Assembly (NCBI GenBank): GCA_023053575.1 | Contig: JAKZAP010000016.1 | Coordinates: 5,514,046-5,578,045, forward strand | Length of the DNA: 64,000 bases | Direction: 5' to 3' | DNA from: Branchinecta lynchi | Lineage: Eukaryota; Arthropoda; Branchiopoda; Anostraca; Branchinectidae | Part shown: piece by piece, positions 22,680 through 49,087 of the stretch | How positions within the stretch are numbered: the first letter of the stretch is position 1 | Layout: each line of letters opens with the position of its first letter | Made by a program: the position numbers and the translations under genes | The notes under the pieces: model-generated | Told to the model about the DNA's origin: nothing | Seen by the model: only the letters and a program-made list of their open reading frames with translations | Database searches by the model: none

Positions 22680-23245
22680 GGGTCTTTCTCAAGACATCAC
22701 CTGAATCCGGGTCGGTCTGTCCCGTCCGGGTTTTGCTAGTTCAAGCACCGTATCCGGAATCTAGAGGTACTTATAACATTTGAACGGGTGATGGATCTTA
22801 ATGAAACTTGATGTTTGGGAAGAATCCGTGTCTCAGATGATCCTCCTCAAATACGAATCGGATCCCGCGACGTGGGGGGGGGGGTTACTGGACGGGGACC
22901 GGAAATCTTTGGAAACGCTTAGAGTGGAGGGATTGGGGTGAACTTGGTAGGAGGAGACATAACTACATCGTTGACATAACCAGACCGGATTCGGGTAATG
23001 TGTGGGAGTTTGAGGGGGGGGGGGGGTCGGAATTCTGTTGATCCCATGAGTTCGGTACTTTCTGATGTGCTAGGACGAGGAAAATTGGAAGGCATACCAG
23101 GGGCCCGAACAGGCTGACTTGAGAATAGTCATTTCCCCGATCCGACCACAATGGGGGGAGTGGAAGAATGGGGAGCCCGGAATCTAGTGGCATGCATAAC
23201 TTTTGAACAGGTCGTCGATCGGAATTGAATGAAACTTGACGCGTG
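22680..23245. repeat. G-tract repeat family 2, left part of the block split by the Polinton
   Basis: Same units as 9026-10955 (GATCGGAATTGAATGAAACT etc.). It is interrupted exactly at the Polinton target; the other half resumes at 36778 in register, as shown by an uninterrupted unit at 53104-53150. Confidence 0.75.
23240..23245. other. Polinton target-site duplication, left
   Basis: CGCGTG immediately before AGTAGT; repeated as CGCGTG at 36772-36777 immediately after ACTACT. Confidence 0.93.
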
Positions 23246-23831
23246 AGTAGTATATAATACCGGCTCCCACTCCACCCTCCCCCCAATTTCAAAACCCCAT
23301 TTTAACATCAATTTCTTAAATTTTAACATCCTTTTTACCAAATTATCCCCCTTTTTAAGAACATTTTTATTTTCTTACTTCCAAAATAAAGGATACAAGA
23401 AATGAGAATATTACCCTTTACTACATATAAAATACTACAATATACTACTACTTCTTTTTTTTTTACATTTTTCATTTTTTATTCAAATATTACTGAGTAA
23501 ACAGTTCTAAATCCACATATGTTTCTTTGTTCTTGTTTTCGCGTACAATAGGCTGCAAAACCAGATTTTTCTTTAAAAGTAATTCGTTAGCAATGGCATT
23601 ATATTTCTGAGTTATAAACAAATCACAGGGTTTGTCATTATGATTAATAACTACAACCAACTTATCACCATATTTTGTCTTAGCAATTCTCATTTTAACA
23701 ATAGTATATTTCAATCCAAGAACTAGTTCTTCTTTCCTGATTGTCTCATTGTATTTATTCATTCTGATTGTATTCAAGACTTCCTTTGTGGACTCCATTT
23801 ATTAGGGGATGATTTTATTAAATAAAAATCC
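23246..23831. repeat. Polinton terminal inverted repeat, left (586 bp)
   Basis: Matches the complement of 36186-36771 over its full 586 bp as far as I can align by eye, including a 10-base A/T homopolymer and the whole 102-codon gene. The match ends after AATAAAAATCC: the left side continues AGACTC, the right side CAATCG. Confidence 0.92.
23490..23798 (-). CDS. TIR-encoded small Polinton protein, left copy
   Basis: A 102-residue protein with a KYTIVKMRIAKTKYGDKLVVV core near residues 30-50 and a hydrophobic, Lys-rich second half. The TKYG-plus-beta-strand pattern resembles a small protein I know from cnidarian and other invertebrate Polintons. An OB-fold-like nucleic-acid-binding role would fit the strand pattern, but that is speculation. 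The start is set by CCCCTAATAAATGG, the signal shared by all genes of the element. It lies wholly inside the terminal repeat, pointing outward towards the left end, and is duplicated without change at 36219-36527. Confidence 0.75.
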   Translation of the reverse strand: MESTKEVLNTIRMNKYNETIRKEELVLGLKYTIVKMRIAKTKYGDKLVVVINHNDKPCDLFITQKYNAIANELLLKKNLVLQPIVRENKNKETYVDLELFTQ

Positions 23832-23835
23832 AGAC

Positions 23836-25194
23836 TCACAAACTCACATACATATTTTTGTTAATAATACCTAATGTAGCTTTTCTTTCATAATATATAA
23901 CACAGTAAACATTATATGGTACGGGTTGATTATCTTTCAACGTTAAACTTATTTCAATATCAGCAGTTGTTCCATTATAAATATTTGACTCGTGTTTGGA
24001 AACATCGAAACAGAATAGTGGATATACTTCTTTAAATTCTTCTATACTAACAACACTACCAGTATCAAATGCTAATTGTTTATAACCCAAATGTATGAAC
24101 CTATTGTAAAGATTTGAGTATTTACATTTGTCATCGCTAAAATCACATTTAAGTGGTTCTTCGGGATATTTATCCCCATTAATTCTAAGTTCTATGTCTG
24201 TTAAATTCATATGATCAAACACCATATTATTCATTAATTGATTGTTATGCTTTTCATTTTTCTGTAGCATCACAACTACTTTTGTTGGATTGTTTCTCTC
24301 AGATATAACTTTCCAAGTGTGTTCCTTATTTTGACTAACATCGCTTTTATAAGTATTACATGCTTCCCACATCAGATTATGCTTTTTATCCTTAGCAAGA
24401 CCCTTTTCTAATTCACTCATCATTTCGATACTAGGAGCTACAATAGGGATCTTCCAGGATAAATACTCGATTACTACTTTGAAATTAGTATTTCCATTTC
24501 TTATAATCATGTTGTTATCATCATTTCTTCTTAGAAATAATTTATGCGATGCACCTCTGAAGAATCGTTTGTTTCCTTTCAGAAATCCAAACAATTCTGA
24601 TAATGGTAAATACATATTTACTAATTTACTGCTCTTTGTTCTGTTATATCTTTTTTCAAATCCTTTATTATAATTATTATTATTTCTCAAACTGACTGTT
24701 CCACCCCCTGCTGCAGCCCCTGCAGCCCCTGCAGTAAACGAAGCAATAACAGGATTAATTTCTTTTCCTTGATTATAATCCTTATACCAGAAATGATTTC
24801 TTGCTGCACTTCTAGAATAATCATCAGAGTAATCAATCAACTTTGTAACGGTAGTTGTAATACCAACATGATTAATTTTTTCAACCGATTCATCGTTTAT
24901 TACATATTCAGCGGTACTGAATAAATTAAATCCATTGTTCGTCAAAGTAGCAATATCGGTTGCAGCTATATTATCTCCATTTTCTTTCACTATTCTTACA
25001 CTAACATCAAGATAACTTTCACTTGGATAAAACCAGGAATCTAATTTCTTTGTTACGAATTCAAACTCTGATTTATTAGATACATTCACATCTGTTTCTC
25101 GAATTTCTTTAAATTCATATTTAACCACTGTATCATCCACAAGCGGTTCATCAAAAATGTTCCATTGCGGACTGATGACTTTATTTACTGCCAT
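23836..25194 (-). CDS. Major capsid protein, double jelly-roll (Polinton PY type)
   Basis: Likely forms the pseudo-hexagonal capsomers of the predicted virion. The 452 residues match the Polinton capsid family that includes C. elegans F54H12.2-like proteins. Visible features are the N-terminal FDEPLVDDT and the SESYLDVSVRIVKENG strand near residues 52-70. In the middle are the MYLPLSELFGFLKGNKRFFRG block near 195-215 and the KLFLRRNDDN segment, which usually link the two beta barrels. Near the C terminus is PYNVYCVIYYERKA, an antiparallel strand pair. A Gly/Ala-rich loop and an Asn-rich stretch near 150-175 are unusual. It starts at TATAAATGG and follows the 118-residue gene by 30 bp. No break; length is on the short side for the family. 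Confidence 0.78.
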   Translation of the reverse strand: MAVNKVISPQWNIFDEPLVDDTVVKYEFKEIRETDVNVSNKSEFEFVTKKLDSWFYPSESYLDVSVRIVKENGDNIAATDIATLTNNGFNLFSTAEYVINDESVEKINHVGITTTVTKLIDYSDDYSRSAARNHFWYKDYNQGKEINPVIASFTAGAAGAAAGGGTVSLRNNNNYNKGFEKRYNRTKSSKLVNMYLPLSELFGFLKGNKRFFRGASHKLFLRRNDDNNMIIRNGNTNFKVVIEYLSWKIPIVAPSIEMMSELEKGLAKDKKHNLMWEACNTYKSDVSQNKEHTWKVISERNNPTKVVVMLQKNEKHNNQLMNNMVFDHMNLTDIELRINGDKYPEEPLKCDFSDDKCKYSNLYNRFIHLGYKQLAFDTGSVVSIEEFKEVYPLFCFDVSKHESNIYNGTTADIEISLTLKDNQPVPYNVYCVIYYERKATLGIINKNMYVSL

Positions 25195-25224
25195 TTATAT
25201 AAGAAAGAAATTATTAAATAAAAC

Positions 25225-25581
25225 TTATTTCAGAATCTTTAATCCATTACCAGTCATTAACGTTTTGATCAAGTCCTGACTTCTTTGATTTAAAATCCTT
25301 TTATTTGTACCGATAAGATCCTTCATCGATTTTTTGTTTCCAATTACATCGATGAGTTCCTTCTTGTTGACATTGATCAGATCTTTCCCATATTCTATTG
25401 CTCTGTTTTTCAACAACTCAAATCTCGGTTTAATAATATTATTATACATTGACATAGCCCCATCTTTTATTTGTTTTGCTGACGTTTGAAATAACTGGGA
25501 ATTAACAATGTTTTTGAATACACTACCGATTCCACTTCCATACTGCTTTTTATAAAGTAATCGCTTATTATTAATCAACAT
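25225..25581 (-). CDS. Small basic Polinton protein, possible minor virion component
   Basis: 118 residues, Lys/Asn/Ile-rich. It opens with a basic segment followed by YGSGIGSVF (residues 15-23). Then comes an amphipathic alpha-helical stretch around 25-75, and the C terminus is LMTGNGLKILK. The MTGNG word fits the adenain cleavage consensus ((M/I/L)-x-G-x-G), so it may be processed by the element's own protease like adenovirus minor virion proteins. It sits between the penton-like and major capsid genes with about 30-bp gaps and starts at TATAAATG. Function is inferred from position and composition only. Confidence 0.6.
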   Translation of the reverse strand: MLINNKRLLYKKQYGSGIGSVFKNIVNSQLFQTSAKQIKDGAMSMYNNIIKPRFELLKNRAIEYGKDLINVNKKELIDVIGNKKSMKDLIGTNKRILNQRSQDLIKTLMTGNGLKILK

Positions 25582-25613
25582 TTATAGGTAAATAATTTTA
25601 TTTCACTAATCCT

Positions 25614-26327
25614 TTAAGCTTTTCTTAAATGCAGTACGTATCCAACGTTATCACCATTCAAATCGATAGGTCTTCCCAACTGATCAGTAATTGTCATTCT
25701 CAAGGAGTAAATAAAGTCTTTTGTATTAATAGGAAGGTAGATTAATTGTCTAGGATTCTCAACAATTTGACAACCCGGTTCTGTATTCGGAACAAATGTC
25801 CAAATGACATCTGATTTACTTTTGTTTACGATAGAACTGTTTACAAGAGAGCAGTGAATTTGAATTTTATCAACGCTTCTTGTTATATTCGGAAGCTTTG
25901 TACCTTCATTGATTTTCTTAGATATCTCACTATCCTTCTCAAATCCTAAAATCTGACACAAGTCACTATTAAATCTAAACACATATTTTTCTTGTAATAG
26001 TATGACGAATCTCATAGATGCTGGATTGGATGAAATTACAATAGGACATTTATCTTTTGGGGTATCAAAATACTGACACAAAAAATAATTCAAACAATCA
26101 TCGTTATACATCCCATTAGGAATAGTAACATTCATCCATCCCCCCTCTTCGTCTTTCCTGTATTTAAATGTATTATTTCCAAATTTATCACTTATATTAT
26201 GCCATGAATACCACAAAGTACACTGATTCAAACCTATTTCATAATCCCAATTACGATTCAATTCGATTGGTTGACTAAATGTTATATCAATGATACTTTC
26301 ATTACCTTCAATGTTTAACAACACCAT
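25614..26327 (-). CDS. Penton-like minor capsid protein (Polinton PX type)
   Basis: 237 residues with mainly beta-strand character and no membrane segment. Polintons carry a single jelly-roll minor capsid protein of about this size next to the major capsid gene, thought to form the vertices. The features I associate with that family are the N-terminal strand motif ITFSQPIELNRNWDYEIGL (residues 15-33) and the C-terminal block SLRMTITDQLGRPIDLNGD with its closing VGYVLHLRK strand (about 207-236). The middle contains the VFRFNSDLCQILGF segment seen in related proteins. It starts at TAATAAATGG, 3 bp after the stop of the coiled-coil gene. Confidence 0.68.
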   Translation of the reverse strand: MVLLNIEGNESIIDITFSQPIELNRNWDYEIGLNQCTLWYSWHNISDKFGNNTFKYRKDEEGGWMNVTIPNGMYNDDCLNYFLCQYFDTPKDKCPIVISSNPASMRFVILLQEKYVFRFNSDLCQILGFEKDSEISKKINEGTKLPNITRSVDKIQIHCSLVNSSIVNKSKSDVIWTFVPNTEPGCQIVENPRQLIYLPINTKDFIYSLRMTITDQLGRPIDLNGDNVGYVLHLRKA

Positions 26328-26330
26328 TTA

Positions 26331-27155
26331 TTAGAAATAATTTTTATATATTGAATTGTAATCTCTCTTCGTAAGAAATTTATTTCGCATTAACGAATCC
26401 AAAATATCAATAGCTTCATTTCTCACCTCATCAGATGTATTTCCGTTTACTCTGCTACCTATCAAAGTGTATAATTTTGAAATCATTTCATCACAGTTCA
26501 TAAATATTCCAGTTCCTTTTTGTTGAACTAAAAATGGGGAATTAGTTCGAATGCTGGTTAACCTCTCCTTGTATTCTCTTATAAATTCAAGGATTTCATC
26601 ATAGCTAGAGTAACCTTTACCTTTTTTCCCGCCATAACTTTGACTTAGAGATGTCAAACGTTCTAGAGCCTCATCTATATCCGTATGATGCTTAATGTAA
26701 TACGTAGGCATTTTAAAATAAGTATCAGTGCCACCCCGCGATTCTACATGTTTTAAATTAATCTGATTTAACAACTCATGGGTAATATCTTTATTCATAT
26801 CAACGGATAGTGGTCCTAAATCGGGAGAAGGTTCTAAAGCGGGTGCTCGACTCACTTCCTCTGAATTTGGAATCTGTAAAGCTGTTTTAAATGTATCACC
26901 TAATCTGATAAACCGTCTTCTTGAATTATTATCACCTTCCTGTAGTTTATTAATTATCGTTTCAGCGTTCTCTTGTAATTTTTTGATGGTATCTTTAGTG
27001 TTTTCTTTTTGTGCTATAATAACTGGAGCGTTTAACTCTGAAGCATATTCCCGAAATCCTGCTTTCTCCATCTCATTTTGTTGAACCTTTCTTCTCTGAA
27101 TTTCTCTGTTCTTCACTATATCTGATAAAATATCACTCAAGCGTCTTGAATCCAT
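26331..27155 (-). CDS. Coiled-coil Polinton protein of unknown function
   Basis: 274 residues. Residues 1-90 are charged and heptad-like (IQRRKVQQNEMEKAGF; TIKKLQENAETIINKLQEGD), consistent with a coiled coil. A Pro-rich linker follows near 100-115, then a globular C-terminal half with a Gly/Lys patch (GGKKGKGYSSYDE) near 190-205. No catalytic motif recognised. It lies between integrase and penton-like genes in the capsid block, with TATAAATGG at its start and a 3-bp gap to the next gene. A structural or scaffolding role is a guess from context. Confidence 0.6.
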   Translation of the reverse strand: MDSRRLSDILSDIVKNREIQRRKVQQNEMEKAGFREYASELNAPVIIAQKENTKDTIKKLQENAETIINKLQEGDNNSRRRFIRLGDTFKTALQIPNSEEVSRAPALEPSPDLGPLSVDMNKDITHELLNQINLKHVESRGGTDTYFKMPTYYIKHHTDIDEALERLTSLSQSYGGKKGKGYSSYDEILEFIREYKERLTSIRTNSPFLVQQKGTGIFMNCDEMISKLYTLIGSRVNGNTSDEVRNEAIDILDSLMRNKFLTKRDYNSIYKNYF

Positions 27156-27171
27156 TTATATACAAGTAATT

Positions 27172-28143
27172 TTATTTCATAATAAATTTTGAAAGTTCTT
27201 TTTCATAAAACCCTCCTTGAATTAACTCCCCACTTTTGTCAGATATTTCATAAGTAATGGGTTTGGTAGGTCTAACGGTTGCTATTTGGAATACTTCATC
27301 CGTATAATTCGGTAAATATCCTTTATCAAAAATACTTTTTTCTTTTTTAATTCTAACTAAATCTCCTACTTTGACGTTTCCTGTGATTTTGTAGTCATCT
27401 ACTGGAGGAAACAGAGCACTAAAAACCTTTTTCTGATTTACCTTTTTACTAGCATCAACTGGTTTCATTTGTATTGAGCGGTGATACGAGTTATTATAAT
27501 TATTTACGAATACAGGTAAAATATCAATCCATTTACTAGAGTTGTTGTGAGTAAAATATTTCCATAACTTTTCTTTTAGCGTTCTGTTGAATCGTTCTAC
27601 GATTTGTGCTTTCAGTTCACTTTCCGATGCAAACCAGTGAACGTTATTATTTTTCAAAAAAGTTTGAACATTTCTCATCACAAATTCTTTACCTTTATCA
27701 GTTTGTAGTTTCTTAGGAATTCTTTCTTTAAATATAACACTGAATGCTTTTATTATTTCAGCACCCGTTTTGTCTTTCAGAGGGATACACCAAGCATATT
27801 TACTAAAGCAATCAATAACAGTTAAAATGTAATTTGTTTTATTATTTTCTTTTTTATATTTCTGCATGTCAACTAAATCAGCTTGCCATTGCTCATCAAC
27901 ATAGTGAACATACACTCGCCTCCTTTCAAAGTTATGATAGGAAGGTTTGTGTAACGTATACACATTCTCATTTTGCAACACATTTTTTATTGTATCTTTA
28001 GACACGTTCACTCCATTTTCTTTTAATTTTCTGTGAATATCATCAACACCTGAATAATTAGAATAATACGTCTTTAATATATCTTTTTCTGCGTCGAGGT
28101 TTTTTTTAAAAAGCGATTTTTCCTCGATCCGCAAATAACACAA
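27172..28143 (-). CDS. INT: Retroviral-type integrase (rve), entered from the zinc-ribbon frame
   Basis: DDE integrase for joining the linear element to host DNA. Numbering from the open-frame limit at 28143, the catalytic triad is D89 (WQADLVD), D149 (LQTDKGKEF) and E183 (IVERFN), with 33 residues between the last two as in other Polinton integrases. VYTLHKP near 61-67 and SYHRSIQMKPVDA near 214-226 are family marks; residues ~250-310 resemble the SH3/chromo-like C-terminal domain. The frame has no ATG before residue 93, after the first catalytic Asp, and no TAAATG signal. It overlaps the zinc-ribbon gene, whose zero frame reaches it by a -1 step at TTTAAAA. The functional start is therefore probably 28241. 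Confidence 0.88.
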   Translation of the reverse strand: MCYLRIEEKSLFKKNLDAEKDILKTYYSNYSGVDDIHRKLKENGVNVSKDTIKNVLQNENVYTLHKPSYHNFERRRVYVHYVDEQWQADLVDMQKYKKENNKTNYILTVIDCFSKYAWCIPLKDKTGAEIIKAFSVIFKERIPKKLQTDKGKEFVMRNVQTFLKNNNVHWFASESELKAQIVERFNRTLKEKLWKYFTHNNSSKWIDILPVFVNNYNNSYHRSIQMKPVDASKKVNQKKVFSALFPPVDDYKITGNVKVGDLVRIKKEKSIFDKGYLPNYTDEVFQIATVRPTKPITYEISDKSGELIQGGFYEKELSKFIMK

Positions 28144-28241
28144 TTCCCTTTCAGCATTGGAACATTATTTTTTTGTGACACTGCCTTAAACATTGATTCA
28201 GTGTCAGTGCTCTTTTTACATTTCATACAATAAATCTCCAT
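28074..28241 (-). CDS. CxxC zinc-ribbon protein, probable N-terminal part of the integrase product
   Basis: This 55-codon frame is not in a longer ORF. It starts at CTAATAAATGG, the element's standard signal. Cys5/Cys8 (YCMKCKK) and Cys34/Cys37 (NCVICGS) form a two-knuckle zinc ribbon like the short DUF5679-type domains found in Polinton proteins. It terminates at TAA (28076-28074) nine codons after TTT TTA AAA AAA. The heptamer T_TTA_AAA lies in zero frame; slipping back one base continues into integrase as a product of about 356 residues. Either the 55-residue protein and the fusion are both made, or one A is missing from the A8 run in this assembly. Confidence 0.75.
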   Translation of the reverse strand: MEIYCMKCKKSTDTESMFKAVSQKNNVPMLKGNCVICGSRKNRFLKKTSTQKKIY

Positions 28242-28258
28242 TTATTAGAAAACAATTT

Positions 28259-28603
28259 TTATAAACGAAAAGCTACCAACTTCATTTTGCGCTTAATGTA
28301 GGAAATACAGTGAAGTCCACAGTTTAATTCATCTATATTTTGAACAGCAAGATTTTCATAAGCTATTTTTTTCTTTGAAGTTTTTAGATATTTAACTATT
28401 TCTTTTCCTGGAGGAATACCGAAAGAATCAAAAAATTCTACATGGGGGTATTCAGGTAGATTACAATAGGCAACCCAGTGAGTTCCAGGCATTCCGAGTT
28501 TATCATAATTAATGACACCGCATTCTATACTATTTATATGTTTGGGTAGCGTATCTATAGAGAAAACACCTCTAAAATGTGGTATATCCCCTAATGCATC
28601 CAT
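28259..28603 (-). CDS. PRO: Adenain-like cysteine protease, probably expressed by -1 frameshift
   Basis: Maturation protease of the adenain/Ulp1 (C5) group. From the first ATG: H42 (GTHWVAY), D59 (EFFDSFG), Q88 (AVQN) and C95 (LNCG), the complete H-D-Q-C set in order; FRGVF near residue 10 is a family mark. The conserved domain begins upstream of this ATG with LTNFDI, and the frame stays open back through the end of the preceding gene. No TAAATG signal precedes it, unlike all other genes. In the preceding gene, zero-frame TCA AAA AAC (A_AAA_AAC) at 28660-28666 would shift ribosomes into this frame with no stop between. Confidence 0.85.
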   Translation of the reverse strand: MDALGDIPHFRGVFSIDTLPKHINSIECGVINYDKLGMPGTHWVAYCNLPEYPHVEFFDSFGIPPGKEIVKYLKTSKKKIAYENLAVQNIDELNCGLHCISYIKRKMKLVAFRL

Positions 28604-28626
28604 AATATCAAAATTGGTTAGAGGTC

Positions 28627-29184
28627 CTACTTTACTTTTGCTTCTTTTTTTATGTCCCCGTTTTTTGACTTCCTAGGCCTTCCACGTACCCCATTACCCA
28701 CAACTTTTTGTGTTCCAGGGAGTGTAAGCGCTCCACCTGTGTTAACATCATCGGTTTTCTTCTTAGGTCTTCCCCGTCCCACAACTTTTTGTGTTCCAGG
28801 AAGTGTAAGCGCCCCACCTGTGTTGGTTATGTTATCCACCAATTTCTTACCAGCGAATGTACCCAAAGCAGCAGCTCCGCTTGTTAAAGCTGCCTTACCA
28901 AGGGCTACAGCTAACGGTATTAAGAATGGAAGTAATCCACCTTTTTGAATCGCTTCTCTCATCTGCTTGTATGATACATCTATGTCACAACCCTTATTAT
29001 TCATTTTACATGTTTCAATTTTATCAATTTGTCGTTTACTTAAAAGTAACTTAACTGGTTCTCGTTCATTTTGTCTACTATGACTAACACGTATCTGACA
29101 TTTTTGTTTAGCACCAAAGCATTTCTTCAGCTTTCCTTTCTGAAGCTTTGACAAATAAACTGTATACTCCATTGTTTCAACCAT
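28627..29184 (-). CDS. Basic amphipathic virion protein with two AT-hooks (pVI/pX-like)
   Basis: 185 residues. The N-terminal half (YTVYLSKLQKGKLKKCF; LLLSKRQIDKIETCK; DIDVSYKQMREAIQKGG) matches a family found next to the protease in invertebrate Polintons. Residues 82-115 are hydrophobic/Ala-rich (LLPFLIPLAVALGKAAL...), suited to membrane disruption as in adenovirus pVI; that role is inferred. Residues 121-136 and 148-163 are exact repeats (NTGGALTLPGTQKVVG), each followed by a GRP core in basic context (RGRPKKK, RGRPRKS), i.e. AT-hook motifs suited to the AT-rich element. Zero frame ends at TAG 28629-28627, ten codons after the A_AAA_AAC slippery site. Confidence 0.7.
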   Translation of the reverse strand: MVETMEYTVYLSKLQKGKLKKCFGAKQKCQIRVSHSRQNEREPVKLLLSKRQIDKIETCKMNNKGCDIDVSYKQMREAIQKGGLLPFLIPLAVALGKAALTSGAAALGTFAGKKLVDNITNTGGALTLPGTQKVVGRGRPKKKTDDVNTGGALTLPGTQKVVGNGVRGRPRKSKNGDIKKEAKVK

Positions 29185-29214
29185 TTATTAGGGAATTAAT
29201 TTATCTTATAAAAT

Positions 29215-29838
29215 TTATTTACCAGCCATCATTTTTTCTATTCTGGTAACGAATGGTTTGTCAACAGGTTTTAGCTCTAGCTCTAGAAGCCTTTTTAAAA
29301 TATTTACTACTGCTCTTTCAATATTATCGATACGAGTTTTTTGACCAGCAATCTTTCCTTCAATTATACCGTTATGGGTGTGTTGCCCAAGAAGCTTTTT
29401 GTCATAATCTAAAAGATTCATAGTTAACGTTGCTAAATTAACAGCATCATTTTTGTTTCTAGGGTTTTGAACATTTGTTATCAATTTGTTCTCAGCATCA
29501 ATTTCTTTCTCATTAACTCGAATTATTTCTTTTACAAATAACCCTTTATCATTAATCCTTACCAATAAATTTTTAGGAGAATCATGTACCGCAGTTAATC
29601 TGTTGATATCTTCGCTAAAATACTGATTTATCCCCACTTGTTGTGCGGTAATTTCTTCTTTAAATTGATTCAGAATAATAGTCATGGATCTGAAACTAAT
29701 AGCGTCCTGGTCAGCTTTCGCATCCCCTAACATAATAATTCTCTTATCTTGTAGGTTAATATTACCGTTGTCATCAGTAACTCTCTTTTCATTCGATTCG
29801 TTACTAACCTTTTTTCCAACACTACCAAATTTATTCAT
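29215..29838 (-). CDS. Fibre-like Polinton protein
   Basis: 207 residues. Two segments share the pattern seen in phage and viral tail-fibre shafts, where a short beta element carries I-x-N/L-x-(D/N)-P...DA: residues ~26-50 (NINLQDKRIIMLGDAKADQD) and ~125-150 (NKLITNVQNPRNKNDAVNLA). A C-terminal heptad-rich stretch (RIDNIERAVVNILKRLLELE) could trimerise. Together they suggest a trimeric spike or attachment fibre, or an internal trimeric scaffold. It lies between the packaging ATPase and the pVI/protease unit and starts at ATAATAAATG. No homology search was possible; the fibre call rests on the repeated motif. Confidence 0.5.
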   Translation of the reverse strand: MNKFGSVGKKVSNESNEKRVTDDNGNINLQDKRIIMLGDAKADQDAISFRSMTIILNQFKEEITAQQVGINQYFSEDINRLTAVHDSPKNLLVRINDKGLFVKEIIRVNEKEIDAENKLITNVQNPRNKNDAVNLATLTMNLLDYDKKLLGQHTHNGIIEGKIAGQKTRIDNIERAVVNILKRLLELELKPVDKPFVTRIEKMMAGK

Positions 29839-29854
29839 TTATTATAGAAATAAA

Positions 29855-30532
29855 TTATCCGGTAAATTTTTCAAAGTTTTTCCTGTACTTAAGGGTTTTA
29901 TCTTTTATTTTTAAATCTATGAAGAAAAAACCGTAGCCCTTGGTTGCAGTCTCGAATTGTTTCAGAAATTTTTCATCGTCTATACTGGATACATGGCTTT
30001 GTCTTATTAATTTTACTTCTTTTGGATTAGAACACTGAAAGAATGCAAAATAATTGCACTGGAGCCTTACCACCTTTGGCGTTTTATGATAGCTTTGAGA
30101 CAAGTAAATAATTGAGGCATTTTTCTTTCTTCCTCTTATGAATAAATCTTCTATTTTCTTCTGGTCTTTTTCAGTAACAAAATCATCAAAGATAATCAAG
30201 TTTTGGTACTCAGGGTCTAAGTCGTCAACATCGACAATATCATCAAGATTGTTACTTACTGTTAAGACTTTCGATTTGCATTGTGACTCCAAAGTGGTCA
30301 AATTGGTTATAAGGTCTTGATATTTATCTTCTTCAAGATCTTTTGCATACAAGTATATTCGGTTGAAACAAAGATATTCATAAATTAAATTCAAAAGAAG
30401 GTTAGTTTTCCCTGTTCCAGAACTACCACAAATTAAGAGTCTAAATGGCCACTGAGGTGCAAGGTCGTGCTTATTCTGATAAGTGTTCTTTTCACTAAAA
30501 TCATAGACTTTGATTGGAGCCTTTTCATTCAT
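29855..30532 (-). CDS. ATP: FtsK/HerA-type genome-packaging ATPase
   Basis: 225 residues, an A32-like packaging motor of the kind encoded by Polintons, adenovirus-like elements and large DNA viruses; it would pump the DNA into the capsid. Walker A is GSSGTGKT at residues 36-43, Walker B is NLIIFDDF at 111-118. RKKNASIIYLSQSYHKTPK follows at about 135-155 as the sensor segment (YLSQ), then the C-terminal KGYGFFFIDLK strand. It starts at TAAATAAATG. Upstream lies the 21-bp repeat array that separates it from the polymerase gene. Confidence 0.9.
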   Translation of the reverse strand: MNEKAPIKVYDFSEKNTYQNKHDLAPQWPFRLLICGSSGTGKTNLLLNLIYEYLCFNRIYLYAKDLEEDKYQDLITNLTTLESQCKSKVLTVSNNLDDIVDVDDLDPEYQNLIIFDDFVTEKDQKKIEDLFIRGRKKNASIIYLSQSYHKTPKVVRLQCNYFAFFQCSNPKEVKLIRQSHVSSIDDEKFLKQFETATKGYGFFFIDLKIKDKTLKYRKNFEKFTG

Positions 30533-30561
30533 TTATTTAGGAAGAATTTTTCATTATAAGA

Positions 30562-30782
30562 TTTACTTGAGTATTTTAAGTATATACTTGAAGTTTTGAA
30601 GTAGGTACTTGAATTTTTTAAGTAGGTACTTGAATTTTTTAAGTAGGTACTTGATTTTTTGAAGTAGGTACTTGAAGTTTTTAAGTAGGGACTTCAAGTT
30701 TTGAAGTAGGTACTTGAATTTTTTAAGTAGGAACTTGAAGTTTTGAAGTAGGTACTTGAAGTTTTGAAGTAGGTACTTGAAT
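30562..30782. repeat. 21-bp tandem array with embedded hairpins
   Basis: About ten units of the form AAGTAGGTACTTGAATTTTTT. Each contains the dyad AAGTA-GG-TACTT and an A/T spacer that alternates TTTTTT and GTTTTG. The array fills the gap between the polymerase stop (30783) and the ATPase promoter-like signal (about 30535). No other tandem array of this kind is in the element. Confidence 0.9.
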
Positions 30783-33700
30783 TTAATGTTTATAACCTAA
30801 AGGTAAAGTGTGTATTTTATCACTTGTTACTATCCTTTTATCATCCTTAGGATCTAACGCTTTTTTATTCTGTTCTTCTAGAAACATATTGTGCTTGTAT
30901 GATCTTAAGTTATACTGGGTTATAGAAAGGTTTTCAATATTTCCAAACAGTACATCCTTATAGTTTTGAAGTGTAATTTTATCTTTAACTATATTGGTTT
31001 TTATTCCTTTCAGTTTTTTGCTAGCTTTTGAAGGGTCTTGGTTGTCCTTTAAATAAGCATATACTTTTGATCGTAATCCAACAAACTCTGTCATAACCTG
31101 TCCACCTAATTCATCTTTCATCATTCCTATCACTTTCTTATTTACACTAGGAAACCCATATGGATTATCTTTCGCATAATCAGATGTATCGAACCTCTCA
31201 TTCAAATCTTGTTTGATATCTTGATAAAAATCTTCAGTTCTAATATCATATATGAAAGAATCAGTGTCCATATAACACAAATCAATTTTATCTCCATATT
31301 TAGGCTTCATATAATCATAATGGAATTCATACATCAATAACTTGGATAGTTCTAATACAGCAAAACCGATGTACATTGGTTTGTCTAGTTTTATCTTTTC
31401 CTTCGACATTCTTGCTACTGAAAAGTTTTCACTGAATATTATTTCAGATTTAAAGTTGGGTTTCTTTATTATTTTTTCTCTTGTTGCATCATCCGTTATT
31501 ATTTCCATATCCGCTCGCTTCCTTACGTTTTCCATAGTTTTTCCAAAGCAAGCATTATTCATAAGCTTAAAGAAATCCTTTTCAAAATCATTTGTACCTT
31601 TAGTTCTAAGTGCTGTGTTGTGGTCTATATATCCTTTTAAGTAAGCACTTTCAGTGAATCCTAGTATTCTGTGTACTCTTTTCAATATCAAACCTTTTTG
31701 TAAATAGAATTCTAGATTCCTGTGGTGAACTACATAGTTGGTTTTATCTAATACTGTGGTACATAGCTTACCGTTAAAGTGTTCGGGTGCTAATGGTAAA
31801 TCCTTGTGTAATTCGTGTAGTTCTTTTGGATATTCTAAATCTACTTCATATATAGCACCTACATCTTGTCTCACCGACTTAATCGTAATCACCGACTTGA
31901 TATGAGTTTTTAGATGGTTGTAATACTCGATTGATTCGTATTCATTCCTTTCTTTCAAATCATCCGGTATGGAAATGAATTGGAAATCATTCTCTGGTAA
32001 ATTCTGCGACATCGCCCACCCATATAAATTATTTTTATCCAAATACACTAAATAATTAGATGGTTTATTCTTATTATAATCACTTGTATATTTATTATTT
32101 GCTTTTGCGTATCTTTTTATACATTGGGATACACCACCTCTTATTCCTTTTTCTATAAAGGTATACATGTCTTCCTTTGAGAATAACGGTAAGTCTACTT
32201 TCGAATGTTTTAGGAAAGCATCCCATGTTAGTCCTGGAGCTGAGAAGTAATGAAGTGGATCCAGATCATAATTATGTATACACACATTTCTGAAATTCTC
32301 TACAACATCCGACAATATTAACACATCACTTTTTAGGTATAATTTAGTATAATCAAGTAATGTTTCACAGTTAAATTGTTTCCATATAGATACCGCTCTT
32401 TTATAATCACTTTTGTCAATACCTTTCCCCGTCAACCTAGAATAAAAGCTTTCAATGGATGGTAACTTTGTACAATTCATTTTATCGAAACTATCTACGA
32501 ATTCATAGGGATACACCCCTTTTTTAATTATTTCTTTGAATTCATCGTCATTTTTGAAGCTGTTAGATGTGAATTTGAAATTCTGTCTTAGATGATTACA
32601 AGGTACTTTGCAATCACATGTTGCTAAATTTGCTGATAGTTTGTCTAAAGATGAAGCCATAAATCTAATTGAATCTATAAACCGCATCTCATATTTTATT
32701 TCCGTATCCGCTTTTGTAATAATTATTGATTTTGAGAATGAGATGAAACTTTCTGCACTTTCAAAAATTCCGTTATCAGGTATCAATTCTCTAACAAATA
32801 AATGAGAATCATATTTTGATAAATTATGCATTACTACCGGGATATGCCTAGGAATCCTGTATTTCATATTACATTCAGCATGAGCAAATCCCCTATCTTC
32901 TCCTGTCATGTGGTCGTGATCAAAGTGAGGATTTTCAGTAATTTCAGTTGTACAGATGTGACAAGTCTTATTCATTAGATTTTTCCATTTTTCGGTAATT
33001 TCTCCATTGGTATAAGTATGGTTTCTTTGTCTGCTTTCATATTTGTTTGCAATTTCTGTGGATACTTTTGTAACGGTTTTAACAAAATGTTCTGCAGCGT
33101 CTTCACCGAAATAGTCATAGTATTTGTTCTGGTTTGTATCAAAGGAACAGCATACCTGAAACCCGTAAGCAAATGGTTTCTGTTTGGCCACTTTTATTGT
33201 TTTCTTCCCGTTTACCTGATTGTATTCTTCGTTATAAGACTCAAAGTCTGCTATTATGCAATAAGGTACTTTCATTTGTTTTGCAATATTTTTATATTGT
33301 ATACTTGAACCTTCAGGAGGCATTATGATATCAGGATCTTCGCAATTATTTTTACTTTCATGTTTTTCAAAGCATTCTTCCTTCTTAAAATGCCTTCCGC
33401 AATAAGTGCAGAGGTATGTCTTTGTTTTCTTTTTAGATATTTGGGGACCAACTAATCTGCTCAGATCCTTTACCAGTACATAATGATTATCGAAATATAA
33501 TAAATTAAAAACATGTTTAGCTGTTTTGCCATTGATTGTACTTTTTAGTATATGACTTCTGATTATTTTCTCTTTATCAATTTGAAATAAACAAATTTTA
33601 ATGTTGTATCTATTTTCAAATTTGTGTATATCTTTAGTATCCATTGGGAAGTTGGTAACCCCTTCGAAATCAAATTCGTTCTCATATTGTTTATATTTCG

Positions 33701-34859
33701 AAATTCTTTCCGGATGATCCTTAGCTGGATGTAGATTTGCTAAGATAGACCAAAGGAAACATTTCTGGTCGTTATTTTCAATATTCAAGCAAGCTCTTTT
33801 ATTTCTTACGAAATCTGGCAGTATTTTAAACGTTCCTCCCATGTAAGATTCTATTCGCGTCATCCTATAATCAATTCCTTCATACCGACTAAATTGTAGC
33901 CCAGATCGAGGGGTATTACTTAAAGAACTAAGTCTCTTGTTATTATCATTCAAATGATTATGAGTAAGAATGCTATTTTTATTTAAAATCCAAGAAGTAC
34001 TGTTGTAATACACTACTACTTCTTCATCATTCTCCTGTCGATGGAAAATAACACGAGTTACAAACTGAACTCTATACTGATAAAGTTCATTCATTCTTCG
34101 TCTCAAATCTGCGAAAACAAAAGCAATAAGAGTATGTTCATCTCTTCCATTGCTTTCAACTGATACGTTTACAGTGAATATATTCTCACTTTCGCTAGAG
34201 ATAGTAGGTTGTTCTTCTTCTTCAGTTCTAAATAAATGATCAGGAATTAATTTTTCTACTTGGATTTTTTTCTTATTTATGAAGAGAGTTGATAAACCAA
34301 TTGGTTTCTGTCTACTGTTATCACGTCTTTCTGTTTGATCTCTTATGATATCTCTATTTTTCTGTACGGAATCTTTATGTTTGGTAATAATATTATTATA
34401 GTATTCTTCAACCTTTTGTATGACTTCTTCTCGGTTTCCGCGAGTTGATAGGTTCTTGTTTTTCAGAAATTTCTTTAATCCGCTTGTCCCTTTTTCTTTG
34501 TTATCATTGTATTCTTGTTTTAGTTTTGTAATGGTGATATTATTTTCTTTTATCTCATCTTCCAGAATGGTTCGTAATCTCGGTTCTGGTTTGTAGTCGG
34601 ATGGTCTGTTCTTATTATGAGTTCTTTCGTTTCTGCGTTCAATTTTAATTTTATCTTCAGCTATCAAAATATACTTATTAAGATGGTTTATTATATTATT
34701 TGTTATTTCATGTTTCTTAGCTCCATTTGTTTTGATTTTATTAATTTTCGCATAAGTCCGCAGTTCATTATATGTATATAGCGATAATCTTTGTATAACC
34801 GCTTTGTTGTTTGATATAACCTTTTTACAAAGCTGAATAACCTCTGCAGTATTCATCAT
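30783..34859 (-). CDS. POLB: Protein-primed DNA polymerase B with N-terminal extensions
   Basis: 1358 residues; replicates the linear element from its ends. Exonuclease motifs: DFE (IADFESYNE, ~535), NLSKYDSH (~685) and YLKSDVLILSD (~840). Polymerase motif A is DKNNLYGWAM (~940), motif B is KLMNNACFGKTMENV (~1098-1112), motif C is YMDTDSF (~1193). N-terminal to this lie SAP-like helices (~10-55 and ~115-145), a papain/OTU-like block with KCFLWSI (~366) and NHYVLVKDL (~458), and a C2H2 finger CTYCGRHF...H...C (~482-505). A CxxC/HDHxTGxxRGxxHxxCN zinc/HNH-like insert (~630-662) lies within the exonuclease part. The start is TTAAATG. Size and motifs fit an intact Polinton polymerase. Confidence 0.96.
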   Translation of the reverse strand: MMNTAEVIQLCKKVISNNKAVIQRLSLYTYNELRTYAKINKIKTNGAKKHEITNNIINHLNKYILIAEDKIKIERRNERTHNKNRPSDYKPEPRLRTILEDEIKENNITITKLKQEYNDNKEKGTSGLKKFLKNKNLSTRGNREEVIQKVEEYYNNIITKHKDSVQKNRDIIRDQTERRDNSRQKPIGLSTLFINKKKIQVEKLIPDHLFRTEEEEQPTISSESENIFTVNVSVESNGRDEHTLIAFVFADLRRRMNELYQYRVQFVTRVIFHRQENDEEVVVYYNSTSWILNKNSILTHNHLNDNNKRLSSLSNTPRSGLQFSRYEGIDYRMTRIESYMGGTFKILPDFVRNKRACLNIENNDQKCFLWSILANLHPAKDHPERISKYKQYENEFDFEGVTNFPMDTKDIHKFENRYNIKICLFQIDKEKIIRSHILKSTINGKTAKHVFNLLYFDNHYVLVKDLSRLVGPQISKKKTKTYLCTYCGRHFKKEECFEKHESKNNCEDPDIIMPPEGSSIQYKNIAKQMKVPYCIIADFESYNEEYNQVNGKKTIKVAKQKPFAYGFQVCCSFDTNQNKYYDYFGEDAAEHFVKTVTKVSTEIANKYESRQRNHTYTNGEITEKWKNLMNKTCHICTTEITENPHFDHDHMTGEDRGFAHAECNMKYRIPRHIPVVMHNLSKYDSHLFVRELIPDNGIFESAESFISFSKSIIITKADTEIKYEMRFIDSIRFMASSLDKLSANLATCDCKVPCNHLRQNFKFTSNSFKNDDEFKEIIKKGVYPYEFVDSFDKMNCTKLPSIESFYSRLTGKGIDKSDYKRAVSIWKQFNCETLLDYTKLYLKSDVLILSDVVENFRNVCIHNYDLDPLHYFSAPGLTWDAFLKHSKVDLPLFSKEDMYTFIEKGIRGGVSQCIKRYAKANNKYTSDYNKNKPSNYLVYLDKNNLYGWAMSQNLPENDFQFISIPDDLKERNEYESIEYYNHLKTHIKSVITIKSVRQDVGAIYEVDLEYPKELHELHKDLPLAPEHFNGKLCTTVLDKTNYVVHHRNLEFYLQKGLILKRVHRILGFTESAYLKGYIDHNTALRTKGTNDFEKDFFKLMNNACFGKTMENVRKRADMEIITDDATREKIIKKPNFKSEIIFSENFSVARMSKEKIKLDKPMYIGFAVLELSKLLMYEFHYDYMKPKYGDKIDLCYMDTDSFIYDIRTEDFYQDIKQDLNERFDTSDYAKDNPYGFPSVNKKVIGMMKDELGGQVMTEFVGLRSKVYAYLKDNQDPSKASKKLKGIKTNIVKDKITLQNYKDVLFGNIENLSITQYNLRSYKHNMFLEEQNKKALDPKDDKRIVTSDKIHTLPLGYKH

Positions 34860-34861
34860 TT

Positions 34862-35226
34862 AATAGGGGAACATTTTTATTAATAAATTTCTCCCGTCTG
34901 AGTTTTGTCAGCCGTAAAGAAAAGCACTGGTTTCAGTATGCGTTTCACAGAGCAAGCGCTGTCTATATTGTCTCCGATCAGTCAAGAAAGTTTCAGTAGA
35001 GTTCCGTAGATAGCAGATGTGTTTTGTGTTTCACGGAGTCAAGAAAGTTTCAGTAGAGTTCCGTAGATAGCAGATGTGTTTTGTGTTTCACGGAGGAAGC
35101 GCTATCTAGATTCTCTCCGATCAGTCAAGAAAGATTCCATACAGTTTAGCAGGTGGCGGATGTGTTCCGAATCGCGAACCTTTCATTCAATCAAATAATT
35201 TCTGAAACAATTTTATTACATAATAA
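34862..35226. promoter_or_regulatory. Divergent intergenic region with direct repeats
   Basis: Separates the leftward polymerase from the rightward 2-TM gene. Two perfect 57-bp direct repeats (34981-35037 and 35038-35094, starting GTCAAGAAAGTTTCAGTAGA) lie inside a looser repeat whose flanks (AAGCGCT(A/G)TCTA...CTCTCCGATCA) occur at about 34955 and 35097. A third, diverged copy starts near 35125. GC content is higher than in the genes. Likely control region for both transcription units; an origin function is possible but not shown. Confidence 0.75.
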
Positions 35227-35646
35227 ATGGAAGAATTAGAAAAGAAAATGTATGTTTACCGTCGCAGTTACAAGTACTACAATCGTATAAGTAATAGCTT
35301 ACTTGTATCCAAATTCCTCTTTTCGGCAGCAGGAATGTCTGCGTTTCTAGTGCTACCTTTAGCTTCTTTAAGTTTGGGTGCTGTTATCATCGAAATAATT
35401 GAAAAGCAGTTAAGCATTGCTGATAGAAAAGCAGAATTTAGGACTATTTATGATTTTTATACTGAGTTGTTGTCAATGCTAAAATGCGGACAGTTAACAA
35501 TTGAGGAGGTAATTCAGAGAGAAACAGAGATGCGTAAAACCTTTCGATTTTTTCCTCGCGAAAAATACATGAAACAAGTCCGTCTGAATGGCTATAAATA
35601 TTGTAATAAATCTATAAAAATTCAAGAGAAATTACCAAACATATAG
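35227..35646 (+). CDS. Predicted two-pass membrane protein
   Basis: 139 residues, the only single-copy gene on the plus strand of the element. A basic aromatic N terminus (YVYRRSYKYYNRI) precedes two hydrophobic stretches separated by a short turn (LLVSKFLFSAAGMSAFLVLPLA at ~25-46 and SLGAVIIEIIEKQL at ~49-62). A charged helical C-terminal tail of about 75 residues follows. This layout recalls small membrane proteins I associate with invertebrate Polintons and, loosely, 2-TM effector proteins; no function can be assigned. It starts at CATAATAAATGG, diverging from the polymerase across the repeat-containing intergenic region. A role in egress, entry or host-cell membranes is conjecture. Confidence 0.65.
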   Translation: MEELEKKMYVYRRSYKYYNRISNSLLVSKFLFSAAGMSAFLVLPLASLSLGAVIIEIIEKQLSIADRKAEFRTIYDFYTELLSMLKCGQLTIEEVIQRETEMRKTFRFFPREKYMKQVRLNGYKYCNKSIKIQEKLPNI

Positions 35647-35689
35647 TCTATTGCTATACTGAATATTGTTTCCTAACTGTCAAACAGAT

Positions 35690-36060
35690 CTTTATTTCAT
35701 ACGCGCATTAATGAGCTGCGTCATTCAAAGGTCTCGCCGCCAATTTGGGATGTAATTACAGTCTCCGGCGTGACTAACACAATCTCATCTTAGCTCGGAA
35801 ACTTGTGCGAATTGAACAAGGACCCTTGGTGTAGTGGCTCAACGCTCGGCCGAACGTTGACTCATCACCATTCAGACCTTCGAATCCCACTGACCGCAGT
35901 TTCTGTTTGTCGATAGTGGGATGGTAATAAAAACTTGCGGGTTCCCCGTTCAGGGCCCCCCAGACTAAGGCCACATCACCACAAACACTACACCAATCGG
36001 GGTGTACCAACATCACACCTCTTAATTTTCAAAGTCTGGGGGTGTGGGGTTTTGCAAAAA
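35690..36060 (+). mobile_element. tRNA-derived SINE-like insert
   Basis: A GC-rich island inside the AT-rich element. A-box TGGTGTAGTGG at 35827-35837 and a B-box-like CCTTCGAATCC at 35877-35887 are at tRNA spacing. A non-tRNA body follows, with CCCCCCAGACT...AAAGTCTGGGGG forming an inverted pair (about 35957-36045). The tRNA-related part does not fold into a full cloverleaf. Borders and target duplication are not resolved. Confidence 0.5.
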
Positions 36061-36185
36061 TATTTTATAAAGTTCAAAATCGGTAATCATCATATCATCA
36101 TGCAAACTCAGTACTGCGTTTGTATCTATCGCATTTATATGATAAACGTGGTTGGTTTCTATTACCAGATGTTTCAAAGCGATTG

Positions 36186-36771
36186 GGATTTTTATTTAAT
36201 AAAATCATCCCCTAATAAATGGAGTCCACAAAGGAAGTCTTGAATACAATCAGAATGAATAAATACAATGAGACAATCAGGAAAGAAGAACTAGTTCTTG
36301 GATTGAAATATACTATTGTTAAAATGAGAATTGCTAAGACAAAATATGGTGATAAGTTGGTTGTAGTTATTAATCATAATGACAAACCCTGTGATTTGTT
36401 TATAACTCAGAAATATAATGCCATTGCTAACGAATTACTTTTAAAGAAAAATCTGGTTTTGCAGCCTATTGTACGCGAAAACAAGAACAAAGAAACATAT
36501 GTGGATTTAGAACTGTTTACTCAGTAATATTTGAATAAAAAATGAAAAATGTAAAAAAAAAAGAAGTAGTAGTATATTGTAGTATTTTATATGTAGTAAA
36601 GGGTAATATTCTCATTTCTTGTATCCTTTATTTTGGAAGTAAGAAAATAAAAATGTTCTTAAAAAGGGGGATAATTTGGTAAAAAGGATGTTAAAATTTA
36701 AGAAATTGATGTTAAAATGGGGTTTTGAAATTGGGGGGAGGGTGGAGTGGGAGCCGGTATTATATACTACT
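36186..36771. repeat. Polinton terminal inverted repeat, right (586 bp)
   Basis: Inverted copy of 23246-23831 with equal length and no difference noticed. Contains the second copy of the 102-residue gene. Confidence 0.92.
36219..36527 (+). CDS. TIR-encoded small Polinton protein, right copy
   Basis: Same 102-residue product, residue for residue, as the gene at 23490-23798, and the same upstream CCCCTAATAAATGG. It points outward toward the right end. Because both copies sit wholly inside the TIR, dosage is doubled and each copy is near a DNA end, where replication begins in protein-primed systems. Function unknown; see the left copy for motif notes. Confidence 0.75.
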   Translation: MESTKEVLNTIRMNKYNETIRKEELVLGLKYTIVKMRIAKTKYGDKLVVVINHNDKPCDLFITQKYNAIANELLLKKNLVLQPIVRENKNKETYVDLELFTQ

Positions 36772-36777
36772 CGCGTG
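36772..36777. other. Polinton target-site duplication, right
   Basis: CGCGTG directly after the terminal ACTACT. Removing the element and one copy restores a continuous family-2 repeat (GAATGAAACTTGACGCGTGG then AAAGA; compare 53104). Confidence 0.93.
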
Positions 36778-48046: not shown

Positions 48047-49087
48047 TTGGTCACACTTGGCTCATTTACTGGCTTCTTGTGTTGCAAAAGTAGAAAAAAA
48101 GAAAAAGAACAAGATACAACTAAACAATTCTTCAACAATTCTTCCGTCTCTGCAACAAGTGGAGTGCCCCAGGGTAGTGTATTGGGACCATTACTATTCA
48201 ATATTTATATTAATGATTTAGTGTCCGACATTGATTCTGATATCGTGTTGTATACGGATGACACCAAGATGTACAGAGTCATCAGGAGTTCCCAAGATTC
48301 ACAGATACTCCAAAATGATCTTCACAAAATTGAACTTTGGATGCAAGTGTGGCTGATGGAAGTCAACGTCGAAAAAAGTCACCATCTTGGCCTGTGACCC
48401 TCTCACTTTAAAACTTTCTATAGTTTCAACAGCCAAACGATACCCGAATGCATGACCCAGCAGGATCTAGGGATCCTGATCGATGGGGATCTGCGTTTCT
48501 CGCAACATTACAACCTTACCATGAAAAAGTGTAATAGAATCCTTGGTGTACTTCGAAGAAACTTTACTTTTAAGCAGGATGGTTTGTTCTCACTTCTTTT
48601 CAAGTCGATGGTTCGCCCGATCACTGAATATGGCCACACCACAGTGAGGCCATATTACAATTGTGACATTGAGGCTTATGAAAAAATCCAACGGAGAGCT
48701 ACGAACTTCGTACCAGATCTGCGCGATCTCCCCTACCAAATGAGATTAGCCACGTTTTGCCGTCCCTCCGTTGCATACAGATTTTTTAGAGGAGACCTGA
48801 TTGAAACGTTCAAATTAATCAGTGGAAGTTATGACAATTTTGAAGTAACTGATTTAGTAAGATTCAGCATTAACCGTCATCATCGGGGGCACGCGTGCAA
48901 GCTTACAAAGTCAAGATTCCACAAGGACGTTTTTAAGTGGGGTTTTGGCAACAGAATTGTTGATCCTTGGAACAGCCTTACCGAAGATGCGGTTAATGCT
49001 GAATCGATCAATAGTTTTAAGTGCATTGTTGATGAGATTTTTAACTCTGATCAGTTCGACTACTCAAAATTTCTTAGAGTTATTTAG
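48047..49087 (+). pseudogene. Non-LTR reverse transcriptase, frameshifted remnant
   Basis: Two adjacent frames carry consecutive parts of one Jockey/CR1-like RT. In 48047-48397, SGVPQGSVLGPLLFNIYIND (palm) is followed by the catalytic block YTDDTK, with Thr where the usual motif has Ala (YADD). In 48452-49087 come the LGILIDGDLRFSQHY segment, the LLFKSMVRPITEYGHTTVRP block and an aromatic/basic tail ending near DPWNSL. Between them (48370-48450) the frame changes at least twice and stop codons appear, so the gene is dead. It is 5'-truncated, lacking endonuclease and fingers. Sequence differs from the LINE at 239-997, so it is a separate family. Confidence 0.85.

Follow-up and report, generated by a model that had tools for sequence, protein, structure and literature searches.

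Polintons (Mavericks) are recognized by long terminal inverted repeats, a 6-bp target-site duplication, a family B DNA polymerase and a retroviral-type integrase, and further by an A32-type ATPase, an adenain-type protease and a double-jelly-roll capsid protein. The yeast pGKL elements are linear and possess a polymerase B. A Polinton-like ancestor common to these yeast elements and large DNA viruses has been proposed; the yeast elements use TAAAN initiators and produce 5′ poly(A) leaders, as does vaccinia virus, in which slippage at the TAAAT initiator of intermediate and late promoters makes such leaders (PMC6211774, PMC6831550). In vaccinia late promoters, TAAATG lies at the start codon, and intermediate promoters combine TAAA with an upstream A-rich box that is followed by T (PMC11980589). 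Mavirus and endogenous mavirus-like elements are integrating Polinton-type elements in which a promoter motif is repeated before the genes; the mavirus motif matches the late promoter of its helper, and these integrated virophages are a precedent for carrying helper-type promoters (PMC10945749, PMC8547959). A literature search on promoters and transcription starts in Polintons, Mavericks and adintoviruses, with most subscription papers outside its range, found no promoters of the kind reported here described for an animal Polinton. In this study, we analyzed a 64,000-nucleotide stretch of contig JAKZAP010000016.1 from Branchinecta lynchi (the whole stretch is called the window, and positions refer to it), in which positions 23246-36771 are a Polinton with both ends. 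Its separately started genes carry a motif in fixed register with the ATG. This layout fits poxvirus-type intermediate/late promoters better than an RNA polymerase II (Pol II) promoter or a translation signal.

TAA directly precedes all 12 ATGs for which the original prediction had claimed a TAAATG-type signal (23798, 25194, 25581, 26327, 27155, 28241, 29184, 29838, 30532, 34859, 35227 and 36219). That claim was confirmed, with one correction: these were called 12 independently started genes, and only 11 starts are independent because 36219 is the terminal-repeat twin of 23798. TAA was found before 11/11 independent starts as compared with 11/464 of the element's remaining ATGs, both strands included (Fisher 1e-16); with the ATG of the protease, at 28603, entered as a miss, the value is still 1e-15. 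In an ungapped alignment of the 11 starts at the ATG, T at -27, AA at -18/-17 and TAA at -3 to -1 are present in 11/11, T at -14 and A at -4 in 10/11, and T at -13 in 6/11. An A-rich stretch lies around -22 to -15. The upstream box, which had been predicted only within about 10 bp of the signal, is thus tighter than claimed and stands in fixed register with the ATG (-27, -18/-17 and -14). The information in -30 to -7 is 23.4 bits, as compared with 15.3 +/- 0.7 bits in dinucleotide shuffles, and 0/3000 shuffles reached 23.4; enrichment over shuffled sequence was therefore verified. The flanks are unremarkable against shuffles (-60 to -31, 338/1000; +4 to +27, 122/1000). With a 33-column matrix, the 12 starts score 21.7-32.4 and the rest of the window scores 10.9 or less. 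Because this matrix was trained on the same starts, leave-one-out ranks are the fair measure: from the upstream part only, the starts rank 3 to 276 of 27,006 positions. The gaps between tandem genes, predicted at about 3-40 bp, are 3-37 nt in 8/9 cases, and the ninth, from the polymerase end to the ATPase, is 250 nt. In 4/8 close tandem pairs, those separated by 3-17 nt, the promoter extends into the upstream open reading frame (ORF).

The motif is conserved among copies of the element. When the host genome (576 Mb, 216 contigs) was searched for siblings, at least 126 capsid-family copies were found (871 first-look candidates; 126 scored, all 126 over the cut-off), and an internal stop is absent from the capsid match in 123/126. 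The terminal inverted repeats of the window's element are identical (586/586 bp). Therefore, the copy in the window belongs to a large family and was inserted recently. Twenty of the 126 capsid-bearing copies (L058-L077), hand-picked to vary contig and ORF length, were read, together with a second piece for 19 of the 20. Their proteins are mostly 87-100% identical to those of the window; the lowest identities outside the variable genes are 78% (protease, L067) and 65% (zinc ribbon, L077), and the ATPase was not found in L058 in this comparison. Orthologous starts could be aligned in 172/180 cases for nine genes in the 20 siblings, and, out of 19, in 16 for the polymerase, 15 for the 139-amino-acid (aa) ORF and 11 for the second terminal ORF. 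Nearly all alignable starts retain the motif, so that the sibling check turned out in favor of the original prediction. Across the 172 starts, substitutions are absent at -28 to -26, -24, -17, -10, -9 and -4 to -1. In a count by alignment column, 3/99 in the core are polymorphic as compared with 101/561 among the others in -60 to -1 (p 3.5e-5). In L063 and L067, the sequence before the 207-aa ORF has diverged, yet TTTA, GATAATTT and TATAAATG are kept at the same spacing. In L066 and L068, identity of the 207-aa protein to that of the window falls to 64 and 60%, respectively, and the window's promoter is unchanged. The mean dN/dS (ratio of nonsynonymous to synonymous substitution rates) is 0.08-0.35 in six genes (18-20 copies). 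This low ratio and the low core polymorphism suggest that selection acted on the promoters and proteins during the spread of the element.

A signal had been predicted at every gene start. This holds for all separately started genes, and the integrase and protease ORFs have no motif of their own. Each of these two lies in the -1 frame of the preceding promoter-bearing ORF, and slippery heptamers, T TTA AAA and A AAA AAC, stand in the correct phase ahead of the integrase and protease frames, respectively. In 18/20 siblings, a stop after 55 codons ends the zinc-ribbon ORF and the -1 frame stays open for at least 301 further codons; L064 and L077 differ in this layout, and T TTA AAA is present in the other 18/20. 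After the AT-hook ORF, the -1 frame runs for 119 codons or more without a stop in 16/20 siblings and is shorter in 3, and the start was not found in 1; A AAA AAC was seen in 18/20. Since decay would not preserve such a layout across siblings, the arrangement suggests that the integrase and protease are probably made by -1 frameshifting. Downstream of the slippery sites, only weak RNA structure is predicted, with energies of -7.4 and -9.0 kcal/mol over 80 nt. If both are frameshift products, every separately started gene has a promoter. In this respect, the Polinton would share with retroviruses a -1 frameshift route to integrase and protease.

In vaccinia late promoters, the TAAAT initiator overlaps the start codon, and this is the case here in 11/11 starts; the A-rich box followed by T upstream of TAAA, which characterizes vaccinia intermediate promoters, is also present, although that box is printed as 15-19 nt upstream and the element's box is a few bases nearer (PMC11980589). 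The element thus joins intermediate and late features in one promoter at every separately started gene. Accordingly, the poxvirus-like promoter originally proposed is supported by the TAAAT initiator, the spacing of the A-rich box, the T at -3 and the conservation among copies, and the likeness is to an intermediate type joined to a late type rather than to the late type alone. Unlike vaccinia virus, the element has no recognized polymerase. The yeast pGKL elements, whose TAAAN initiators and poly(A) leaders resemble the element's initiator and proposed leader (PMC6211774, PMC6831550), encode their own RNA polymerase and use a UCS box, ATNTGA, neither of which was seen in the element. Mavirus shares the repeated motif; it differs in that its motif is TCTA, its host is a flagellate and its helper is known, whereas the element has an animal host and no identified helper. 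Late promoters of African swine fever virus (ASFV) have an AT-rich initiator like that of the element, with a box, found in 17/55 late genes, 4-12 bp upstream of the start (PMC7163114). The ASFV initiator is TATA, whereas the element reads TATAAATG at 3/11 starts and differs at the other 8. Adintoviruses and meldviruses are animal Polinton-type viruses, some of which pair a polinton polymerase and integrase with poxvirus-like virion genes; adintoviruses are defined by an OTU-like domain at the polymerase N terminus and a chromodomain on the integrase, and the word "promoter" is missing from the main text of this source (PMC11071296). In the element, neither an OTU nor a chromodomain match was obtained with Pfam at E 0.1.

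Based on these likenesses, we propose that each transcription unit would have its own core promoter of about 30 bp, consisting of T-rich sequence around -27, an A-rich box that spans about -20 to -14, a spacer rich in pyrimidines and a TAAAT initiator whose last two bases would be the AT of the start codon. Transcription would most likely start in the AAA of TAAAT. The polymerase may slip there to give a short poly(A) leader, as in poxviruses and the yeast cytoplasmic virus-like elements. Eukaryotic start contexts (Kozak) favor a purine at -3, and T at this position would be a poor context if it were transcribed. In the proposed mechanism, the T at -3 would lie outside the message, and the conflict with the start-codon context would therefore be removed. 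The promoter would be read by an RNA polymerase of the nucleocytoplasmic large DNA virus type, supplied in trans by a co-infecting virus, and the element would work like a virophage of an animal virus. No Pfam match at 0.1 to an RNA polymerase or a named transcription factor was found among the scanned ORFs (those of at least 80 aa, plus the zinc ribbon); therefore, the reader probably comes from outside the element, and by analogy with mavirus and its relatives a large DNA virus would be the simplest supplier. We put the probability of this reading, a poxvirus-type promoter with a polymerase supplied in trans, at roughly 0.5. The original prediction had gone as far as dependence on a helper virus; its poxvirus-like promoter is retained here, and helper dependence stays a hypothesis.

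The main competitor is that host Pol II reads these compact promoters in the nucleus and makes leaderless mRNAs or mRNAs with very short leaders, perhaps aided by a transcription factor from the unassigned ORFs or the zinc-ribbon ORF; the zinc ribbon could be such a factor. The element is integrated in nuclear DNA and has no recognized RNA polymerase, two marker searches of the host genome for large DNA viruses gave no match, and in some protists Pol II promoters lie directly at the ATG. Leaderless Pol II genes are unusual in animals, however, and the host is an animal. Moreover, the A-rich box is 12-18 nt from the start site that we infer, which is too near for the geometry of TATA, TBP and Pol II (about 24 bp); the same argument has been made for ASFV (PMC7163114). 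Thus, we consider transcription by Pol II rather unlikely, although it deserves more weight than any of the explanations below.

If the motif were a translation-start context instead of a promoter, its attachment to the ATG would be expected. However, the T at -3 in 11/11 starts runs directly counter to a Kozak context, which also has no place for the invariant bases at -27 and -18/-17, and the integrase and protease, which have no start of their own, are exactly the ORFs without the motif. We therefore regard a translation signal as improbable. Even less credible is the idea that the AATAAA within TAATAAATG serves the preceding gene as its polyadenylation signal. AATAAA is contained in 7/11 motifs and the genes are packed tail to head, but it is missing from 4/11, the divergent starts 34859 and 35227 carry the motif with no gene ending upstream, and the bases at -27 and -18/-17 are left unexplained. 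The spacers are very AT-rich, and in principle the motif might be a by-product of this composition or of duplicated upstream sequence; the shuffle test refuted this explanation, no excess was present in either flank, and the core positions are less polymorphic among copies, so that its chance is negligible. A spliced-leader acceptor was also considered and rejected: there is no AG within 20 nt before the ATG at any of the 11 starts.

Several observations weigh against a poxvirus-type promoter read by a polymerase from a co-infecting virus. Vaccinia late promoters have T 10 nt before TAAAT (PMC11980589); in the element T is at this distance in 6/11 starts and one base off in 10/11. One sibling has a disrupted start of the 118-aa ORF, another has lost the ATG of the AT-hook ORF, and 1/16 polymerase promoters has a one-base deletion. 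Animal Polintons are widespread, and we know of no helpers for them. A search of the host genome for co-occurring large-DNA-virus sequences, suggested with the original prediction, came out negative for the two marker families used, in searches made without a positive control: Pox_VLTF3 gave 0 matches (3 candidates scored) and Capsid_N gave 0 matches (0 candidates). It should be mentioned that a helper virus need not be integrated in the host genome.

Distant relatives also count on this side. The motif is present in the siblings, whereas in most of the distant relatives the full motif is missing and the window matrix as a whole performs no better than shuffles or permutations. For 41 starts in 10 loci (300 shuffles each), the combined p was 0.09 for L001, 0.013 for L045 (a single start) and at least 0.2 for the other eight. 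Column permutation gave 76/2000 for L001 (814/2000 with TAATAAA held fixed), 1130, 963, 224 and 1864 of 2000 for L036, L037, L039 and L043, respectively, and 172/2000 for the pooled 14 starts of L040, L044-L046 and L048. What recurs in three contigs is TATAA or TAATAA in -10 to -1, a feature chosen after the relatives' sequences had been viewed: it is enriched in L001 (8/10 starts; 0/1000 shuffles), L036 (4/7; 2/1000) and L043 (3/3; 0/1000). It is not enriched in L039 (0/6; plain ATAA 3/6, 18/1000) or in 15 starts of six other contigs (1/15, 402/1000). The start lists came from automatic ORF picking with hand edits (1/4 starts in L046, 1/2 in L037, 4/5 in L048, and 4778 added to L036), with L038, L041, L042 and L047 excluded, and the starts are not all independent, since 8494/8520 (L001) and 4778/4804 (L036) each share one divergent spacer. 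The full matrix finds two starts in L049, the contig that L001 also denotes, one opening an ORF of 192 aa and the other an ORF of 71 aa; the L001/L049 polymerase is 33% identical to that of the window. One of two matrix matches in L045 starts the polymerase, and those in L039 and L047 are followed by reading frames of 4 and 5 codons, respectively. The motif pattern was matched once each in 34 viral contigs, in some of which matrix scores of at least 11 occur, leading into ORFs of 2-68 codons. Capsid and polymerase queries against viral contigs found no relatives except L001/L049, and the phage and plasmid searches gave no match. The loci L036-L048 hold polymerase genes of the Polinton type; their contigs are assigned to bacterial or archaeal genomes, which probably reflects contamination from a eukaryote or virus. 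L036 also carries a BRO-N gene.

The features of the element are collected in Table 1. With respect to the Polinton hallmarks, it has the long terminal repeats, the same six bases, CGCGTG, flanking both ends, a family B DNA polymerase recognized by homologues and an integrase recognized by Pfam; the ATPase and capsid matches are strong and the protease match is weak. For the polymerase, 6679 of 7985 scored proteins are homologues at E <= 0.001 (best 2.8e-219); among those listed, one is named DNA-directed DNA polymerase, and others are named from coral, spider and bug. For the same ORF, the Pfam scan found SAP and endonuclease VII only, and neither it nor a PDB profile search gave a polymerase family match. 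The capsid model has a mean predicted local distance difference test score (pLDDT) of 79.8 and matches capsid proteins of iridovirus, faustovirus, chlorovirus, Sputnik and mavirus; a PDB search with the capsid alignment found no match. In a low-confidence model, the product of the terminal-repeat ORF has five strands and helices and is perhaps an OB-like fold; its single-sequence fold (pLDDT 48) was unusable. Three genes have distinct alleles among the siblings (274-aa ORF, 66-98%; 207-aa ORF, 60-99%; AT-hook ORF, 79-98%) and vary strongly beside mostly near-identical neighbors, as if by recombination between co-replicating viruses. In L062, the zinc-ribbon start and its promoter are duplicated about 489 bp apart (5067 and 5556). 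The 21-bp tandem array lies where the polymerase gene ends, on the upstream side of the ATPase, and the divergent spacer contains a perfect 57-bp duplication (34980-35095); both are possible replication or packaging signals. Elsewhere in the window, a reverse-transcriptase fragment with one internal stop (48047-49087) is presumably CR1/jockey-like; like the polymerase homologues from coral, spider and bug, it is in keeping with an animal host.

Table 1 Features of the Branchinecta lynchi Polinton in window coordinates. Promoter-initiators span -28 to +3.
Feature	Position	Strand	Evidence
Target-site duplication CGCGTG, left	23240..23245	.	read from sequence
Left terminal inverted repeat, begins AGTAGT	23246..23831	.	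0 mismatches in 586
Terminal-repeat ORF, 102 aa	23490..23798	-	ORF list; low-confidence beta-rich model
Promoter-initiator, terminal-repeat ORF	23796..23826	-	motif alignment, matrix
Major capsid protein, double jelly roll	23836..25194	-	PF21738 1.1e-27; structure match of model
Promoter-initiator, capsid gene	25192..25222	-	motif alignment, matrix
118-aa ORF, no assigned function	25225..25581	-	ORF list, Pfam scan
Promoter-initiator, 118-aa ORF	25579..25609	-	motif alignment, matrix
237-aa ORF, conserved family, probably penton/minor capsid protein	25614..26327	-	inferred
Promoter-initiator, 237-aa ORF, mostly within 274-aa ORF	26325..26355	-	motif alignment, matrix
274-aa ORF, no assigned function, allele-variable	26331..27155	-	ORF list, sibling comparison
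Promoter-initiator, 274-aa ORF, partly within integrase	27153..27183	-	motif alignment, matrix
Integrase frame (rve), -1 frame of zinc-ribbon ORF	27172..28164	-	PF00665 3.9e-14
Zinc-ribbon ORF, 55 aa	28074..28241	-	DUF5679 1.4e-9
Slippery heptamer T TTA AAA, zinc ribbon to integrase	28104..28110	-	sequence
Promoter-initiator, zinc ribbon/integrase, partly within protease	28239..28269	-	motif alignment, matrix
Adenain-like protease frame, -1 frame of AT-hook ORF	28259..28672	-	PF00770 0.022, ASFV S273R 0.021, both weak
Basic AT-hook-like ORF, 185 aa	28627..29184	-	AT_hook 0.0034
Slippery heptamer A AAA AAC, AT-hook ORF to protease	28660..28666	-	sequence
Promoter-initiator, AT-hook ORF/protease	29182..29212	-	motif alignment, matrix
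207-aa ORF, allele-variable	29215..29838	-	Pfam scan, sibling comparison
Promoter-initiator, 207-aa ORF, partly within ATPase	29836..29866	-	motif alignment, matrix
A32-like packaging ATPase	29855..30532	-	PF04665 2.1e-13
Promoter-initiator, ATPase	30530..30560	-	motif alignment, matrix
21-bp tandem repeats, about 10.6 copies	30564..30784	.	sequence
Family B DNA polymerase with SAP and endonuclease VII domains	30783..34859	-	polymerase part by homologues
Promoter-initiator, DNA polymerase	34857..34887	-	motif alignment, matrix
Promoter-initiator, 139-aa ORF	35199..35229	+	motif alignment, matrix
139-aa ORF, divergent from polymerase	35227..35646	+	ORF list, Pfam scan
Right terminal inverted repeat	36186..36771	.	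0 mismatches in 586
Promoter-initiator, second terminal-repeat ORF, twin of 23796-23826	36191..36221	+	motif alignment, matrix
Terminal-repeat ORF, second copy	36219..36527	+	ORF list, terminal repeat comparison
Target-site duplication CGCGTG, right	36772..36777	.	same six bases as left

By analogy with the systems described above, the motif suggests a switch of about 30 bases, fused to nearly every start codon, by which the element may borrow the polymerase of another virus. A promoter that is fixed to the start codon and conserved among copies leads to a concrete prediction: mRNAs should begin at TAAATG with extra A's, and only in virus-infected animals. More tentatively, this high-copy Polinton might be a virophage of an animal, with every gene waiting for a cytoplasmic large DNA virus to bring its RNA polymerase, and its copies might be inducible passengers or defenders, like mavirus in its flagellate. 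If this is true, it would be the first animal counterpart of the mavirus system within the literature searched, and it would add a link at the level of transcription signals between Polintons, the yeast linear elements and large DNA viruses. The finding thus bears on how animal Polintons are expressed and on whether any of them is a satellite of a larger virus.

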